Assembly (NCBI RefSeq): GCF_023684405.1
Contig: NZ_JAGSOI010000003.1
Location: 1-64,000, forward strand
Source of the DNA: Methanococcoides seepicolus
Lineage (GTDB): Archaea > Halobacteriota > Methanosarcinia > Methanosarcinales > Methanosarcinaceae
DNA: 64,000 nt
Reading direction: 5' to 3'
This document shows, piece by piece, positions 25,113-33,589 of this stretch (position 1 is the stretch's first letter; the number at the start of each line of letters is the position of its first letter). The translations under genes were made by a program, and so were the position numbers. The notes beneath the pieces were generated by a model that saw only the letters and a list, made by a program, of their open reading frames with translations, searched no databases and was not told the origin of the DNA.

Positions 25113-25154
25113 ATAAAAATGGGTACTTACGCTAACCATATCGGAGGAAAGCAA

Positions 25155-26771
25155 ATGTCATTGTTCATCGAGGTCAAAGATCTAACTATCACTTACGACG
25201 GTGTTAATGTTCTGAAGAATATCAATCTTAACATCAATGAAGGTGAGGTTATTGGAATTCTGGGGCGCAGTGGTGCTGGGAAAACAATTTTGATGCACGC
25301 TCTGCGAGGTGCTGAAGAATACGAGAACATTTCCGGTTCCATCATTTATCATCTTGCGAGATGCGATAAATGTGGTCATATCGACCCGCCAAGTAAAGTA
25401 GGCAAGCCTTGCCGTCTCTGTAATCATGAGGATATGAAGGCATTTGATGCGGATTTTGTAGCTCTGTCTCAGCATGATCATGAGCGCAGGAGCGTTTCCA
25501 TGAGAATTGCCATTATGTTGCAGCGTACATTCGCCCTTTATGGCGATGATCAGGTAGTTGCAAATGTGATGAACTCTCTGAAAGAGATCGGATATACAGG
25601 TCCTGATGCGATGTCAAGGGCTATGGAACTTCTTGAAGATGTCTGTCTGTCTCACAGGTTGATGCACGTTGCGCGTGATCTGAGTGGTGGGGAGAAACAA
25701 AGGGTGGTTCTTGCAAGGCAACTTGTGAGAAATCCAATGTTTTTGCTTGCGGATGAACCTACCGGCACGCTCGATCCAAGGACTGCCGATATCGTCCATG
25801 ATGTTATTGAAAAGGCCGTGAAAGATTATAATATGACCATGGTCATCACATCTCACTGGTCTGAGGTCATCGAGAAGCTTGCAGATAAGGCTATCATCCT
25901 TGAAGATGGTGCGATAATCAGTGAAGGTGAGCCTTGCAAGGTTGCTAAAGAGTTCATGGGCATGGTGTCCAGCATTGAGAAGAATGTCAAAGTTCCTCTT
26001 GGTGCTCCGATAATCGATGTCAAGAACCTTGTCAAGAAATATATCTCTGTAACAAGGGGCGTTATACATGCGGTAAATGATATCTCCTTTGATGTGAAGG
26101 AAGGTGAGATATTTGGTCTTGCAGGCACAAGTGGTGCAGGAAAGACAACTACCTCCGAGATGCTCATGGGAATCGTTGCACCTACAAAAGGGGATATTCA
26201 GGTCCGTGTGGGCGATGAATGGGTGGACATGACCAAACCGGGTCCTGATAACAGGGGACGTGCCACTAAATATATGGGTATTCTGCATCAGGAATATGGG
26301 CTTTACACTCACAGGACGATCATTGACAACCTGACGGAGTCAATAGGTATCGACCTGCCTTATGAGCTTGCAGTACGCAAGGCCATTAAGACGCTTGTAA
26401 CTACTGGTTTTAGCGAGGATAAGGCAAAATCCATTCTTCCAAAGATGGCAGATGATATCAGTGAAGGTGAAAGGCACAGGGTTGCTCTTGCTCAGATATT
26501 GATGAAGGAACCTAACATCATTATCATGGACGAACCTACCGGTACCATGGACCCTATCACAAAGATAGAGGTCACAAGGTCCATTCTCAAAGCACGTGAA
26601 GAAATGGGTGATACGTTCGTTATCGTATCTCACGACATGGACTTCCTGCATGAAGTATGTGACCGTGTTGCACTGATGAGAGATGCTAAGATCGTGTCGA
26701 TCGGTGAGCCGGCAGAGGTGCTTTCTCAACTTACTGAAGAAGAACGTTTGCTTGTTGCTCAGGGAGCATAA
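25155..26771 (+). CDS. atwA: Methyl-coenzyme M reductase activation component A2 (tandem ABC ATPase)
   Basis: The ATP-dependent factor that helps reduce nickel cofactor F430 of methyl-coenzyme M reductase to its active Ni(I) state. Two ABC ATPase halves are present: first Walker [10 protein letters not shown] (38-46) and signature LSGGEKQR, second Walker [10 protein letters not shown] and signature ISEGERHR. The first half carries an inserted four-cysteine cluster (Cys70, Cys73, Cys86, Cys89). ATG 25155 is chosen over the upstream ATG 25119 because GGAGGAAAGCAA precedes it. 538 residues, no membrane segment. It is the first gene of an operon with six methanogenesis markers. Confidence 0.96.
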
Positions 26772-26800: not shown

Positions 26801-28372
26801 ATGGAGGCGATAGGCCTGAGCGGCGAGATTAGTGTAGAGGTCAATGATCATCGCATAGCAATGCCCCCAAATTCTACATTGGGGGATGCTATACAAGCAT
26901 CTGAAACTCCTTATAGGGAAGGTTCTGCCATAGGTCTTCTCAAGAAAGATGAGGGCGGTAGAAGCGGTGCTATTATCGATTATGTCGTTAAGACCTCTAA
27001 AGGTGAATTTAAAATAGAACTCAATGGTGGGTCTGTATCCTCAGGGATATGGGCAGACCGTTTTAAAGATTATGAAGGTGTCAGTGTACGCTGGGATTCC
27101 AGGGATGCAATAGCTTTTGGTCCTTTCGAGGCGGATATTGTTCCTGGTAAAGGCTCAGTATCACTTGAGAAATATGATGTGATCTTCGGTGCGGGTGGTC
27201 TTGATCCCGGTAATACTCATTTGATCATCGCATTGGATGATCACTCCTCGGAATACGGTGCACCTGAAGATGGTTCCTTTGGAAAGGTGATCAGTGGTAT
27301 CAATGTCCTGAAAGAACTTGGAAGCGGGGATAGTATCCTTTCCATCGAACCTGTTCTGGAGTGGGAAGAGACAGGGGAGCATATCTGTACTTCCGATCTC
27401 TCCACAGTACTTGAGGACGGATACCGTATATTCACTTATGTGGAAGTGGAGCTTAATCCGGAAACTCCTGAGGGGGCAGAACACTTTTTTGCTTTGATCC
27501 GGGATGGGACCTTCGAGGTGGACTTTGTTTCCAGCTCTTTTATTTCGGATAGTTCCTTGCACGGTGAGATGTGCAAGTATGAAGGTTTTGACCCGCGGGA
27601 TAAAGGTTCAGTATGGGTAAGGACAGTAGGGTATGGTTCCGGCAAGGTCTTCATTGCCCGCGATGACCGTCCGGCAAGTGTCATGCATTCCGTTATAGGA
27701 CATTTGTCGCATGGCATGGAGCTTGTGCAGATGGCGGAAGCCGGTCAGAAATTGATGGTAAAGACTGATCCGGAACCGATCTGGTTATTGGGTCTGTCTT
27801 TCAAAGCTGCAGAGGAAAAGCTTTCTGCACTTGGTATCGAGATTGTTAAGAAAGGATACGTGGAAGAAGATGCTGTTGTTGTGAAACAGGATCCCCCGCA
27901 CAGCATCGATGTTATGCGACAGGGATCTGTGGAAGTTATCGGTGTTCCGGATTCAAAGCTTGTTAGCATTGAACTTTATGATGATCTGGCTCCAAAAACG
28001 CTTGATTTCTTCAGACATGCTATCGATCTCCAGTTCAAACCCGTTGGGGCATTGCCGGTCATGATGACCTACGAGAACACGTATATATTCAAGGCGGAAA
28101 AGGCTGCGGAAAAATATAAGGAGATCATGCCTGAGAACGTTCCCGTAGGCAAGGTAAATGCAGGTGATATCGGTGTCACCAACCAGGCGGCTAAAAGGCA
28201 TGGTATGGTTGGTGTAAAACTGGACGATGATGATATGTTCGGTCCTACGGGTGAGAAGTTCCTGAGCACAAATATCATTGGTCATATCCTTGAACCTGAG
28301 AAACTTAAAGGGCTTAAGGATGGGGATGTTATGTACGTTATTGAAGTAAGGGGAGTGATAATTGATGGCTGA
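26801..28372 (+). CDS. mmp3: Methanogenesis marker protein 3
   Basis: A 523-residue protein of the marker 3 family, one of the proteins found with Mcr activation component A3a. The N terminus resembles a small beta-grasp fold (VEVNDHRIAM then NSTLGDAIQAS), and the C-terminal part contains a cyclophilin-like region (KLVSIELYDDLAPKTLDFF and later GDIGVTNQAAKRHGMVGV). The PASTA-like WLLGLSFKAAEEKL segment sits between. The ATG 26801 has no good ribosome site, though GGAGG falls just inside the gene. Spacing of 29 bases to atwA and an 8-base overlap with mmp6 support one transcript. Confidence 0.94.
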   Translation: MEAIGLSGEISVEVNDHRIAMPPNSTLGDAIQASETPYREGSAIGLLKKDEGGRSGAIIDYVVKTSKGEFKIELNGGSVSSGIWADRFKDYEGVSVRWDSRDAIAFGPFEADIVPGKGSVSLEKYDVIFGAGGLDPGNTHLIIALDDHSSEYGAPEDGSFGKVISGINVLKELGSGDSILSIEPVLEWEETGEHICTSDLSTVLEDGYRIFTYVEVELNPETPEGAEHFFALIRDGTFEVDFVSSSFISDSSLHGEMCKYEGFDPRDKGSVWVRTVGYGSGKVFIARDDRPASVMHSVIGHLSHGMELVQMAEAGQKLMVKTDPEPIWLLGLSFKAAEEKLSALGIEIVKKGYVEEDAVVVKQDPPHSIDVMRQGSVEVIGVPDSKLVSIELYDDLAPKTLDFFRHAIDLQFKPVGALPVMMTYENTYIFKAEKAAEKYKEIMPENVPVGKVNAGDIGVTNQAAKRHGMVGVKLDDDDMFGPTGEKFLSTNIIGHILEPEKLKGLKDGDVMYVIEVRGVIIDG

Positions 28373-28799
28373 AGAAACTGAGGATAACATCACGAAGATA
28401 GTTGTCATAAGTTCGGACAGCATCCTGCCCACGGACGCAGCTATGAAGGTTTACGAATCGGAAGATTCCATCACCATCAAGGAGACCTGTTTTGGTACGA
28501 TGGTGAATGGTCCGAGAGAGGCTGTGCTCAAAGTGGTCGAAACCCTTCGTTCAATGGACCGTAATCATATATTTGTAAAGGAAAGGGGCTTTAAGCCAGG
28601 CGCAGAGGTTCGATGCCGGGCGGGAAGAGGAGGCGGTCCAAGACCAGGTTTCCATTTCCTGAGGGAAGAGGTGAATATGCTTCCCATGATAGGCAGAGCA
28701 TTGGACAAATATGAGGCTGGCGAACCCCTTGAAGAGCATGAGGCTCCGAAAAAACTTGATATATCGAAGTTGAAGAAGATAATTGATTCAGAATTATGA
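28365..28799 (+). CDS. mmp6: Methanogenesis marker protein 6
   Basis: A 144-residue marker 6 protein, part of the Mcr activation set. The core reads IVVISSDSILPTDAAMKVY, then ETCFGTMVNGP and a basic glycine-rich loop CRAGRGGGPRPGFHFLREE. The loop includes one cysteine and several arginines and could contact a cofactor or partner. ATG 28365 has GGGAGTGAT ahead and overlaps the mmp3 stop by 8 bases, so the two are translationally coupled. Confidence 0.94.
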   Translation: MAEETEDNITKIVVISSDSILPTDAAMKVYESEDSITIKETCFGTMVNGPREAVLKVVETLRSMDRNHIFVKERGFKPGAEVRCRAGRGGGPRPGFHFLREEVNMLPMIGRALDKYEAGEPLEEHEAPKKLDISKLKKIIDSEL

Positions 28800-28808
28800 G
28801 GTGTTACA

Positions 28809-29264
28809 TTGGCAAAAGTTATCATTTATCCTACGAACAGCCTGATACTTTCCGATATGGTGGAAAGGTTCGGACATGAACCTCTTGCTATGATGGAGAA
28901 GATCAAGGAGATAATAAACACGGTTGGTGTTGATTCCCCTCCTTTGAACATTACTCCGGAAGGCCCAAAACACGGTTTGAAATATGCTGCGGTGGAAGTG
29001 CCTGCAGGAGTTCGCGGAAGGATGTCCCTTATTGGTCCCATGATCGATCTTGCAGAAGCTGGCATAATCGTTGGCGATTCATCTATCAGTTTTGGATGTA
29101 TGGGCTGTGCCCGTACCAACGAACTGACAAAGTTCCTTATCAGGGAAAAGGACATCCCCATACTTGAGATCCAGTATCCTCATACCGAGGAAGAAGGGCA
29201 GGATTTCGTTTACAAGATAGCAGAGTTCTTGAAGTCCCTGCCATCCGGGAGTGATGAAAAATGA
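28809..29264 (+). CDS. mmp5: Methanogenesis marker protein 5
   Basis: A 151-residue marker 5 protein. Visible family segments are [17 protein letters not shown] at the N terminus and [15 protein letters not shown] (about 93-107), where two cysteines in GCMGC may bind a metal or react with a thiol. The start is TTG 28809 with GAGGTGTTACA ahead. It overlaps the next gene, mmp15, by 4 bases (ATGA), implying coupled translation and a fixed ratio. Confidence 0.94.
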
Positions 29265-30505
29265 GCGATAAAGGAGATCCGGTACTGATAGCCCTTGTTT
29301 CCTGTGGAAGTGAGTATGCTGGTGTCCAGAGCGAGCTGGAAAAAGCCGCAAGTATGTTGAATGCCAAGCTTGTTTATCCTGAGATGGATGTTGCGACCCT
29401 CGATACCATCGGTATGGAGTTCGGGTTGGAAGTGGCAAGTCCTGACCTCAGACTTATGATGGCAAGGGCGAAAGCGGTCGTTGAAGGCGTTGCAAAAGTG
29501 GACGGTGTTTTCGTGACATCATGTTTCCGTTGCGCTGAAGCTGCAATCGTGAGGAATGAGTTGAGGAGGTACATCTTCGAGAAATCCGGTTTGCCTGTGA
29601 TAAGCTATTCTTTCACTGAGCGTACCACTGCCGCAACTCTGCTTACACGTCTGGAGGCTCTGACGACCATTGCTAGACGGAAACACCTGCTTGCGAGAGT
29701 GAAACAGTCCGGTATCACCGCAGGTGTCGATTCCGGTTCAACTACTACCAAAGCGGTCGTTATGAAGGACAACGAGATCGTCGGGGAGGGCTGGGTACCG
29801 ACCATAAAAGTTATTGAAAGTGCAGAGACTGCATTACAGCAGGCACTTGATCAAGCTGGTCTCAAAAGAGAGGACATTCAGGCGATCGGTACTACCGGGT
29901 ATGGTCGTTTCCTGATAGGCGAACATTTCAAGGCGGACCTGGTGCAGGAAGAGATCACAGTGAACTCAAAAGGAGCTGTCTACCTTGCAGATAAACAAAA
30001 AGGCAGTGCCACTGTTATTGATATTGGCGGAATGGACAATAAAGCTATTTCCGTACAGGACGGTATTCCCGGAATGTTCACCATGGGCGGTATCTGTGCC
30101 GGAGCATCAGGTCGTTTCCTTGAAATGACCGCTAAACGCCTCGGTGTGGAGATCACGGACCTTGGCGATCTTGCTATAAAAGGCATGGAGAAGAACGTTG
30201 AAATGAACAGTTACTGTATCGTTTTCGGTATTCAGTCACTGGTCAATTCGCTTGCAAAAGGTTCCTCGCCGGAAGATGTTGCAGCAGCAGCTTGTCATAG
30301 TGTTGTCGAGCAGATATTCGAGCAACAGCTGCAGGAAGTCGAGGTAAAGGAACCTCTGATCCTCGTTGGAGGTTCATCCCTTATTGCAGGGGTTCCAAAG
30401 GCCCTTGGTGACCTCCTGAAAATAGATGTCATAGTGCCACCGCATTCACAGCTTATTGGTGCTGTGGGTGCAGCCCTCCTCGCATCAGGCTATGTGTCGG
30501 AGTGA
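29261..30505 (+). CDS. mmp15: Methanogenesis marker protein 15 (BadF/HgdC-type ATPase)
   Basis: A 414-residue ASKHA-fold ATPase related to HgdC/BcrA activators that drive electrons to low potential with ATP. The phosphate loop is [14 protein letters not shown] (about 152-165), followed by [16 protein letters not shown], and the cluster-region motif [13 protein letters not shown] plus MNSYCIVF, whose cysteines match the bridging [4Fe-4S] ligands of that family. An N-terminal 145-residue domain with SCFRCAEA precedes it. This gives a plausible energy-coupled electron donor for Ni reduction. ATG 29261 has GGGAGTGATGAAAA ahead. Confidence 0.95.
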
Positions 30506-30510
30506 TTCTC

Positions 30511-31104
30511 ATGGAACCTCTTGAGATATTCACTGTTGAAACTACGGAACCTTCCGAGGCTGCAGCTTATGAGAGCATCCTTAAGGATATCATCTCCGAG
30601 CTTGCATTCTCCCGCACCATAGGCAGGATAAAAGTGAGGATAAGGCCGGAGGATTCGCTGTTCATGATGGTCATACTCCTTCGCAGAGGTCTTCCTCCTA
30701 TTAAGGCAGGTGAGATCTCGGATACTGAGTTCGACAGGGAACACGCAAAGGTGGTCATCACTGTCAGGGATGAGAAGACCATTCCTCAGTTTCTGGACAG
30801 GCTCTGGGAACAGTTTGGAAGGCAGAACGTTATACAGCCAGAACGGAACATTATCGAGGTTGCTTCAGATCTTGAGACCGTGGATAAGTTCATCGCTGAA
30901 CTTATCGTGGATGATCCTGAGAAAACGATCCGGGAAAGGCTTGCCGACATGGCCATACGTGCCACCCCGGAAGGGTTCAGGATACGTTACCATTCCCTTG
31001 ATAGCGGCAAATTCGTTTTCGTGGCATCGGAGGATACGATGCAGCAGGATTGGATCGATGAGGCCAATGTTATGTTGAAAGAACTGGAAGGGGATGATTC
31101 CTGA
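30511..31104 (+). CDS. mmp17: Methanogenesis marker protein 17
   Basis: A 197-residue marker 17 protein of the Mcr activation complex. It is alpha/beta and charged, with motifs RTIGRIKVRIRPEDSLFM, RRGLPPIKAGEISD and a C-terminal VASEDTMQQDWIDEANVM. No cysteines at all, so it is likely structural rather than cofactor-binding. GTG 30502 is in frame, but ATG 30511 with GGAGTGATTCTC ahead is the better start. Its stop overlaps the ATG of mmp7 (TGATG). Confidence 0.94.
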   Translation: MEPLEIFTVETTEPSEAAAYESILKDIISELAFSRTIGRIKVRIRPEDSLFMMVILLRRGLPPIKAGEISDTEFDREHAKVVITVRDEKTIPQFLDRLWEQFGRQNVIQPERNIIEVASDLETVDKFIAELIVDDPEKTIRERLADMAIRATPEGFRIRYHSLDSGKFVFVASEDTMQQDWIDEANVMLKELEGDDS

Positions 31105-32036
31105 TGGCAGCAGTACTTGAACCTTATATCTATGAAGGAGGTATTCACAAACACAGTCTGATCCTTGAGCTTCTGGAAGACCTTGGCGGTTATCTCGTTC
31201 AGAAGACCTCTGCTTCAACAGAGGTCACTCTTGTTATGCTCATTCCGAAAAAGGATGTCCATCTTGTCGAGGATCTCTGCAAAAAGCTTCTTGGTAAGCT
31301 GACCTCGGCACCGCTTACTGGTACTGAAGTAGCGGTAGTGTCTCCTACACTCGCATCCCATCATCTTCCACATTCAGCATGTGATATTGCGGAATATCTC
31401 CGTCGCGGAGGGGCGAATACCAATATGATCGGGCTTGCAAGGGGAATGGGGCGAAGGGTCGCATTGTCTGCTGATTATGAGAGAAGGCTCATTAATGAGC
31501 ATGATGTTGCTGTTTTCTCGTTCGGCACTTTCAAGGATTGTATCATTAACAAGAAGCCAAAGCTCTTCGAAGGCATCGAGATACCTATCGTGGTGACCGG
31601 TGGGCCTAACATCAGAACTGAGGAAATTTCCGGAGCTGACATATATGTTGGTGGCATCGGGCGTATTGCTCACAGGATGAGGAAAGGTTCTGAACTGGAT
31701 GCAATGGACGTTCTGAATGAAAAGGTGGGTGAGATCGTGAATCTCAAGAGGGAAAATATCGCAAAGGACCCGCTTGCAGTTCTTCCTGCAAGGCTCATGA
31801 AAGAGGTTCAGGAACAGGTTCCTGATATTCTTAATGTGCTGACACCTGCTCCGATCACGCTTCAGCTTGACGGCATGAGGATAAAACTGCCTTATGATAG
31901 ATACCATGAAGCTGTTGGAAATATCGAATTCGATGAAGGCTTCCTCCTTTCGGATGCGGCGAACATACTTCCTTCCAAGATGAAGGATTACATTCTTGTA
32001 AAGATAAAACGCAGGTCTGAGGTAGTAAATATTTAA
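31104..32036 (+). CDS. mmp7: Methanogenesis marker protein 7
   Basis: A 310-residue marker 7 protein, one of the core proteins reported in Mcr activation complexes. Key segments are HSLILELLEDLGGY at the start, the SPTLASHHLPHSACDIAEYLRRGGANTNMIGLARG region (split here in short pieces: SHHLPHSACD, YLRRGGAN, MIGLARGMG), and GGIGRIAHRM. Cys96 region and the central FGTFKDCI carry the only cysteines. ATG 31104 is coupled to the mmp17 stop with GGGGATGATTCCTG ahead. It is followed 27 bases later by an AhpD-like gene. Confidence 0.94.
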   Translation: MAAVLEPYIYEGGIHKHSLILELLEDLGGYLVQKTSASTEVTLVMLIPKKDVHLVEDLCKKLLGKLTSAPLTGTEVAVVSPTLASHHLPHSACDIAEYLRRGGANTNMIGLARGMGRRVALSADYERRLINEHDVAVFSFGTFKDCIINKKPKLFEGIEIPIVVTGGPNIRTEEISGADIYVGGIGRIAHRMRKGSELDAMDVLNEKVGEIVNLKRENIAKDPLAVLPARLMKEVQEQVPDILNVLTPAPITLQLDGMRIKLPYDRYHEAVGNIEFDEGFLLSDAANILPSKMKDYILVKIKRRSEVVNI

Positions 32037-32063
32037 AATATCTGTATTTAAGTGAGGATTATT

Positions 32064-32513
32064 ATGGACATTGAGAAGATCCGAGAGATCATCGAAAAAG
32101 AGCCTGATGAGGCAGTTTCTGATGTACTGGAGGGTGTGAAGGAGCGTTACGGTGAGATCCCATATATTCTGGAGTTCATGCGTGATATGCCGGATCTCCT
32201 TCTCCCTAAGGTAATGTATGACAATTCGATCATGCGTGAATTCGAAAGGCTTGATCCGAAAACGATCGAGCTGATCTGTATAGGTGTTTCATCTGCCCTT
32301 CGGTGCGACCATTGTATGAATATGCACATCCGTGTGGCAAACAGGCTTGGGCTTACCAAGGAAGAGATCTTTGATGCTGTTCTGATCGCTGGTGCTATTT
32401 CCAATGCATCCGTACTTGCGGAAGGCACACGTGCTCTCGATGCAGAGTTCAATGGTCGGAAATGTGATGGCAACGATGATTGTGATGTTTGCAAGATCGC
32501 GAATCACGATTAA
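32064..32513 (+). CDS. AhpD-like (carboxymuconolactone decarboxylase fold) protein with extra cysteine tail
   Basis: A 149-residue AhpD-fold protein. The active-site CxxC is Cys81-Asp-His-Cys84 followed by His88, matching the thiol-redox site of AhpD. Unusually, the C terminus adds Cys134, Cys140 and Cys143 (KCDGNDDCDVC). Start ATG 32064 is preferred over GTG 32052, with GAGGATT ahead. It lies 27 bases after mmp7 and before the terminator at 32523, so it is the last gene of the Mcr-activation transcript. A role as thiol reductant or thiol protection for Mcr activation is inference. Confidence 0.9.
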   Translation: MDIEKIREIIEKEPDEAVSDVLEGVKERYGEIPYILEFMRDMPDLLLPKVMYDNSIMREFERLDPKTIELICIGVSSALRCDHCMNMHIRVANRLGLTKEEIFDAVLIAGAISNASVLAEGTRALDAEFNGRKCDGNDDCDVCKIANHD

Positions 32514-32522
32514 AAAAAGCAT

Positions 32523-32546
32523 GATGATGCTGTTTTAAGCATCATC
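32523..32546 (+). terminator. Terminator of the atwA-mmp operon
   Basis: GATGATGC, loop TGTTTTAA, GCATCATC (8-bp stem) starts 10 bases after the AhpD-like stop and is followed by TATATTTAATTCAATTTGTTTTTT. Confidence 0.72.
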
Positions 32547-32633: not shown

Positions 32634-33512
32634 CTAAAGAAGTGCACCTGCAAGGTATCCAAGGATCACTCCACTGTTCAGGAATGGAAGTCCTGCCTGT
32701 GGTTTTCCTTTCATGACGAATATTGTAAGCCCGATGAATCCGGTAAGTGTTCCTATTATTGCTCCAAGGGCGGGGTATGATATGAACCCTGTGTGGGCAA
32801 TGAAAACGTTTGCAGATACCACCAGGACGGTTGGCATGACCGCATCCCCAAGTCCCATGAAGAACGCATCTCTTTCGCCTTCCTTTTTCATGCCGTCCTT
32901 TATGAATGAATAGTTCAGCTTTTTCGGGATGATAAAAAGTATTGGCAATCTGAGGTCCATCACACCTTCTGCAAGATCGATCATGTGCTTTGTCTTATAG
33001 ACCGATATGGCATCGTATATTGCAAGAAGTGATAACAGGACGATTGCTGGCAGGATCCCAAAGGATATTCCGAATATTGAACTGGCAGCAGCTCCGATTA
33101 TTATGCCGATGGTATCTATGACATACCATTCAGGGAACTTGTAAAGGACGATGCTGAGTGCAATTGCCAGTATAATTGCCAGTGTACTGCTCAATGTCTC
33201 ACTTATTCCAAGCATATACAAGATCGGATAGAATCCGTAGAATATGGTGGCACCTACTGCAAGCAATATCGTTAGTTGTATTACCCATTTCATGTTACGT
33301 TTGATAGCAAGCAGTAACAGGAATGTGAATGCGAGGATGAATCCTATGTAATAGAACGAATTGGCAGTCGATTCGGGATTCTCTACGGCTTGCATTCCAA
33401 GTTCATCCATTGGGGATGCCAGCACTAATGCGAGAACCTGTACTATTAGGATCAACCCGGCCATTGCGACCATTGGAAAATAATCTTTGAATGTGTCTTT
33501 TTCGGAACTCAA
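32634..33512 (-). CDS. Presenilin/signal peptide peptidase-type GxGD aspartyl protease
   Basis: A nine-helix membrane protease of the archaeal presenilin homologue (A22-like) group. The paired aspartates are Asp167 in LAIYDAISVY and Asp223 in MGLGDAVMP (the GxGD motif); GLPFL near the C terminus and YPAL just before it are candidates for the PAL motif. It should cleave substrates within the membrane, for instance signal-peptide remnants. TTG 33512 with GGGAGAATTATA ahead is a better start than the longer TTG at 33551 (no ribosome site). 292 residues. No partner gene is adjacent. Confidence 0.9.
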   Translation of the reverse strand: MSSEKDTFKDYFPMVAMAGLILIVQVLALVLASPMDELGMQAVENPESTANSFYYIGFILAFTFLLLLAIKRNMKWVIQLTILLAVGATIFYGFYPILYMLGISETLSSTLAIILAIALSIVLYKFPEWYVIDTIGIIIGAAASSIFGISFGILPAIVLLSLLAIYDAISVYKTKHMIDLAEGVMDLRLPILFIIPKKLNYSFIKDGMKKEGERDAFFMGLGDAVMPTVLVVSANVFIAHTGFISYPALGAIIGTLTGFIGLTIFVMKGKPQAGLPFLNSGVILGYLAGALL

Positions 33513-33589
33513 TATAATTCTCCCTGTGCCCAAAATATCTATGTAGTGCAAATTTGAAATATCGGCACAGTATTTAATAGTATGTAATT

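Follow-up and report, generated by a model that had tools for sequence, protein, structure and literature searches.

An AhpD-like protein with a second cysteine pair, encoded at the end of a predicted MCR activation operon, is probably an overlooked helper of MCR

What does a small thiol protein do at the end of a set of genes for activating MCR, the methane-making enzyme? The question arises from the 64,000-nucleotide stretch of Methanococcoides seepicolus DNA analysed here (the window), part of a 2.8 Mb genome. It is still debated where cells obtain the electrons that reduce MCR's nickel, and the conserved redox gene ending the activation operon, which has no name of its own, is a concrete candidate. 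In the open-licence literature we found no report tying this gene to MCR and no biochemistry of its product. The gene has long kept its place beside MCR activation genes in many methane archaea, and the protein is therefore probably an overlooked MCR helper.

A thiol-protein gene in the activation locus

The genes for A2, Mmp3, Mmp6, Mmp5, Mmp15, Mmp17 and Mmp7, all assigned by NCBIfam models above their curated cut-offs, follow one another in that order on the forward strand as a predicted operon, with the thiol-protein gene, here called ahpD, in last place (Table 1). A preliminary description made from the sequence alone had drawn the same picture, and both the translation and the NCBIfam calls agree with it: the 149-residue reading frame does encode Cys81, Cys84, His88, Cys134, Cys140 and Cys143 (together with Cys72 and His83), and its ATG lies 27 nt beyond the end of mmp7, closing the run of Mcr activation genes. 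That description also put the gene before an operon terminator, and here the agreement is partial. The 9-bp hairpin is present, and two terminator-like sites were found where 0.5 were expected, but because its T-tail is weak on the forward strand it is only plausible, from the sequence, that the hairpin ends transcription of the operon.

Table 1. Positions of genes, codons and sequence signals at the activation locus, numbered along the window
Feature	Position	Strand	Remarks
A2 component (AtwA) ATPase gene	25119..26771	+	TIGR03269 862.8 bits, above cut-off
mmp3	26801..28372	+	TIGR03268 579.4 bits, above cut-off
mmp6	28362..28799	+	ORF from TTG; TIGR03272 188 bits, above cut-off
mmp5	28809..29264	+	TIGR03271 248.4 bits, above cut-off
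mmp15	29261..30505	+	TIGR03286 722.8 bits, above cut-off
mmp17	30502..31104	+	TIGR03291 160.9 bits, above cut-off
mmp7	31104..32036	+	TIGR03274 434.4 bits, above cut-off
Shine-Dalgarno-like GTGAGG	32052..32057	+	6 nt upstream of the ahpD ATG; read from sequence
AhpD/CMD-family thiol protein gene (ahpD)	32064..32513	+	149 aa; carries conserved C-terminal cysteine pair
Glu69 codon	32268..32270	+	Glu in 95/95 aligned rows; equals Glu118 of M. tuberculosis AhpD by spacing
Active site Cys81-Asp-His83-Cys84-x3-His88	32304..32327	+	Cys81, Cys84, His88 in 95/95 rows; His83 in 92/95
Cys134 codon	32463..32465	+	Unconserved; Cys in 8/95 rows
Tail pair Cys140-Asp-Val-Cys143	32481..32492	+	Pair in 95/95 rows
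9-bp hairpin, possible terminator	32523..32546	.	Between convergent genes

Downstream of ahpD lies a convergent gene for a PSH intramembrane protease (32634-33551, reverse strand). On which side of the activation operon this presenilin-type protease gene lies depends on lineage: in Methanococcoides, Methanohalophilus and others it is convergent and downstream of ahpD, and in two genera of the family (g5 and g13) and several Methanosarcinaceae MAGs it is upstream of the A2 gene (loci with this flank noted overall: L045, L046, L050, L100, L102 and L105). Within the operon, the mmp6 reading frame begun at TTG overlaps the end of mmp3 (28362-28372); the TIGR03272 match begins at residue 13 of Mmp6, so the true start is probably further downstream.

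Two cysteine pairs on a CMD/AhpD fold

The protein matches the CMD domain PF02627 (E = 8.5e-15; 55 bits against a curated cut-off of 23) and, above its cut-off, the AhpD core domain TIGR00778. The model for the AhpD subfamily proper, TIGR00777, scored 23.8 bits, far below its cut-off of 191.95, the other specific NCBIfam models listed also fell below theirs, and no NCBIfam equivalog reached its cut-off. To judge conservation we aligned the window protein with 94 distinct proteins with complete C-termini, taken from 132 loci with a member, giving 95 rows (locus L001 is a repeat of the window protein). The active site had been described as intact, and so it is throughout the alignment: Glu69, Cys81, Cys84 and His88 are present in all 95 rows, and position 83 is His in 92 and Tyr in three. 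In the proton relay of Mycobacterium tuberculosis AhpD the corresponding residues are Glu118, Cys130, His132, Cys133 and His137 (PMC3141380, in excerpt), and the spacing of Glu69, Cys81, His83, Cys84 and His88 is identical to it. Conservation is otherwise sparse, with just 15 invariant columns among 33 diverse members, four of them cysteines.

The AlphaFold2 model, of moderate quality, is all-helical (mean pLDDT 75.1, pTM 0.52), and both Foldseek and VIA rank CMD/AhpD entries at the top, among them 2af7 (Z 13.3, rmsd 1.1 over 71 residues); the Foldseek E-values are weak, 3.6e-03 at best. As modelled, the fold is the all-helical CMD/AhpD fold. VIA-align also gave rows from outside CMD/AhpD, such as B12-binding helical domains, at Z <= 9.3; we read these as the likeness that helical proteins share in general.

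The C-terminus had been described as an extra three-cysteine tail, with bound metal in mind. Two of the three cysteines stand: Cys140 and Cys143 are matched by a cysteine pair in 95 of 95 rows (88 CxxC, five CxxxC and two Cx5C). Cys134 is a cysteine in only eight, and since it is not conserved we dropped the three-cysteine metal tail as stated; what the tail carries is more aptly called a second cysteine pair. Between residue 126 and this pair the linker varies from 4 to 18 residues, and residues 130-149 have low model confidence and are predicted to be disordered, so that the tail is variable in length and probably disordered. One cysteine pair in the AhpD site and another on a flexible tail of variable length together suggest a tail relay, an arrangement known from other thiol oxidoreductases. 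At L032, L033 and L049, from Methanohalobium and relatives, the tail pair is Cx5C in place of CxxC.

For comparison we took 48 CMD matches in 10 genomes and obtained the loci of 30, of which seven held family members and one a second match in the same reading frame, leaving 22 other CMD proteins. Cysteine-rich tails occur in two of these 22, both from one genome (G074); these two proteins (L151 and L161) have CxxCxxxH sites and C-terminal runs of 3 and 5 cysteines.

Overall, judged by its sequence, the protein is a new variant within the AhpD/CMD fold family, found in a conserved functional setting.

Linkage to MCR genes and its exceptions

Whether ahpD follows mmp7 elsewhere was the question on which the supposed link to Mcr activation turned, and within the host phylum the answer is strongly positive. 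In all 47 Methanosarcinaceae loci (some genomes being represented twice, from two collections) mmp7 lies directly upstream of ahpD on the same strand. In an even sample of 392 genomes, drawn from the host phylum only, the family profile matched 181 at E <= 1e-15 and mmp7 was found in 237 at E <= 1e-20. Among the matches listed, 130 genomes carried both genes, and these were adjacent in 111 (mmp7 then ahpD on the same strand, with a gap between matches of at most 250 nt), within 6 kb in 12 more, and apart in seven (three of family f3, three of f5 and G464). Linkage to mmp genes is thus conserved. From 40 fetched regions we chose 29 linked loci; mmp7 had an ORF call in 28 of them, and there 0-144 nt separate its stop codon from the start of ahpD. 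The order is conserved across families f1, f4, f6, f8, f16, f19 and f25-f27, and the genes are near-adjacent in f14.

Co-occurrence is also tight: among 167 genomes that carry a typical member, 166 possess mmp7 as well (Fisher p = 1.2e-51, with relatedness ignored). The sole carrier without an mmp7 match, G472, is an assembly of about 400 contigs. Its family member (L181, L200) is split by a frameshift, reflecting either an assembly error or decay.

A second context of the gene also involves MCR. In Methanoperedens and its close relatives (we take f5 to be Methanoperedenaceae) ahpD lies away from mmp7 and adjoins mmp10 in 16 of 19 loci, with mcrB called in four of the 19. Since mmp10 and ahpD are convergent in Methanoperedens, they are adjacent yet not co-transcribed there. 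In both of the f3 loci read mmp10, mcrB and mcrC all lie beside ahpD, and one f14 locus (L112 of G192) has the intermediate order mmp7 ... ahpD ... mmp10. If the gene had no role connected with MCR, its move from one MCR-related cluster to another would be hard to account for.

The protein is accessory and not indispensable, as many genomes with mmp7 do without it. Six small-genome relatives of genera g6 and g7, all bearing mmp7, have no member beside mmp7 or, at E <= 1e-20, elsewhere; the two of these scanned with PF02627 held one CMD protein each, lacking CxxCxxxH. Across the sample, a typical member is missing from 71 of the 237 genomes with mmp7, mostly those of f10, all of which lack it; the only relative found in one of them (G409) has no Cys81. 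With mmp7 as a stand-in for MCR, these 71 also mean that the protein does not track MCR as closely as a methanogenesis marker would.

The count of 167 is strict, being the 181 profile matches less 14, of which eleven had their proteins read and three of f7 (G212, G220 and G226) were left out by family. Weak matches in f7, f12, f28, f32 and G409 were at first counted as members; those read proved to be relatives without Cys81 or His88 and without the tail pair. Among 14 distant relatives (including those of G240 and G258), 13 lack Cys81, and the other, L193 of G240, has CxxC and no His88; the tail pair is found in none. These proteins (L182-L193, L196 and L201, from f7, f9, f10, f12, f20, f28 and f32) mostly retain the second active-site cysteine, and the short stretches flanking their genes showed no mmp7. 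That the tail was lost together with Cys81 is suggestive only, because a tree built without the tail gave no clean split: the smallest clade with all members also held seven distant relatives and one paralogue (support 0.967).

A probable accessory role and its competitors

Earlier biochemistry leaves room for such a protein. MCR can be activated in vitro by DTT in combination with A2, ATP and component A3a (PMC9081873, in excerpt), a result obtained in Methanothermobacter marburgensis, where nifB follows the mmp cluster (PMC12176620). The complex purified from Methanococcus maripaludis is unresponsive to DTT, its authors suspecting that auxiliary proteins are missing (PMC12176620), and the Nature 2025 structure paper notes that further factors might be needed. 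A thiol protein encoded in the operon would, by analogy, fit the gap left by the DTT-unresponsive complex. Against this we count that M. marburgensis, the organism of the DTT activation, is one where the mmp7-ahpD linkage was not seen. The published account of the M. maripaludis complex contains no mention of AhpD or carboxymuconolactone (PMC12176620), and no co-purification of such a protein is reported there.

The reading that we favour, with somewhat better than even confidence, is that the protein is a dithiol oxidoreductase of the AhpD/CMD fold and a dedicated accessory to MCR activation, re-activation or repair, or maturation. The tail pair would act as a mobile thiol-disulfide relay that carries electrons from the AhpD pair to a partner or the other way. 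Candidates for this partner are McrC, Mmp7 or A2, through one of their cysteines or persulfides, CoM-S-S-CoB remaining in the site, and some oxidised thiol. The protein may thereby keep the activation machinery reduced, or it may supply electrons at thiol potential, the role of DTT in vitro. We infer such a partner, as well as the way in which electrons flow and any share of the protein in forming Ni(I).

In the preliminary description the protein was linked to Mcr activation from its position, as a thiol-redox partner in a reaction needing a low-potential reductant. The link itself has been strengthened by the gene order, by the co-occurrence with mmp7 and by the move to mmp10 and mcr genes; the low-potential part stays conjectural. 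A CxxC dithiol is expected to fall far short of the Ni(II)/Ni(I) couple in reducing power, and some lineages with mmp7 lack the protein. For free F430 this couple is quoted at -650 mV (PMC12176620, in excerpt), which is beyond a simple dithiol unless ATP-driven changes assist. In a narrower version contained within the favoured reading, which takes the preliminary interpretation to its boldest form and is by itself quite improbable, methanogens and methanotrophs of this branch would use the protein as their physiological dithiol donor for MCR activation, doing in the cell what DTT does for component A3a in vitro. Its mobile tail pair would dock on the McrC/Mmp7 part of the activation complex and feed electrons at thiol potential into an ATP-driven reduction of F430.

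A possible but rather unlikely alternative is an AhpD of the peroxidase type, which would destroy peroxides and so protect MCR or the oxygen-sensitive activation complex, with the tail pair as resolving or recycling thiol and the operon position serving co-expression rather than direct delivery of electrons. All five relay residues of M. tuberculosis AhpD at identical spacing (PMC3141380, in excerpt) speak for it, as do the antioxidant or oxygen-detoxification descriptions carried by the solved relatives and the absence of the gene from the small-genome relatives of g6 and g7. However, the neighbours are MCR genes in the contexts read, the same genomes hold several other CMD proteins, some with CxxCxxxH, and the excerpted source, in describing the residues of classical AhpD, names no such tail pair (PMC3141380).

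We consider it very doubtful that the protein carries metal, Fe-S clusters or persulfide, with iron, zinc or sulfur bound by the tail pairs of an AhpD-type oligomer that helps to load clusters into McrC and Mmp7. A fold known to form trimers and hexamers (PMC3141380, in excerpt), with one cysteine pair on each chain, and the unusual Fe-S clusters borne by the activation complex (PMC12176620, in excerpt) would suit such a carrier, but just two tail cysteines are conserved, a pair spacing of 2, 3 or 5 residues on a linker of 4-18 would be unusual for a metal site, and the pair is absent wherever the active site is broken, in the 14 distant relatives. Finally, that this is a passenger gene of general thiol function which simply stayed beside mmp7 is scarcely credible: lineages with mmp7 and no member do exist, but the order is kept across so many families, with a second MCR location in f3 and f5, and 166 of 167 carriers have mmp7.

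If the protein is indeed an MCR accessory, it may be relevant to making active MCR in other hosts. Its tail pair is a simple target for mutation, and a deletion is feasible to attempt in Methanosarcina acetivorans.

Among known systems, M. tuberculosis AhpD (PDB 1gu9/1knc) shares the five-residue relay spacing and gives a profile match (1gu9, E = 1.7e-05); it differs in being about 180 residues long with a different topology, and no C-terminal cysteine pair is described for it in the excerpted report (PMC3141380). By sequence and fold the closest solved relatives are TM1620 (1vke/1p8c), RclX (7y4r), MTH O27018 (3bey) and TTHA0727 (2cwq). The CxxCxxxH site is common to the alignments of 1vke, 1p8c, 7y4r, 3bey and 2ouw, and matches to the small CMD/AhpD-like structures stop at or before model position 129, with the tail pair outside every one. 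The M. maripaludis activation complex consists of McrC, Mmp7, Mmp17, Mmp3, A2 and a DUF2098 protein (as given in excerpt), and in the host phylum it is the equivalent genes that cluster with ahpD.
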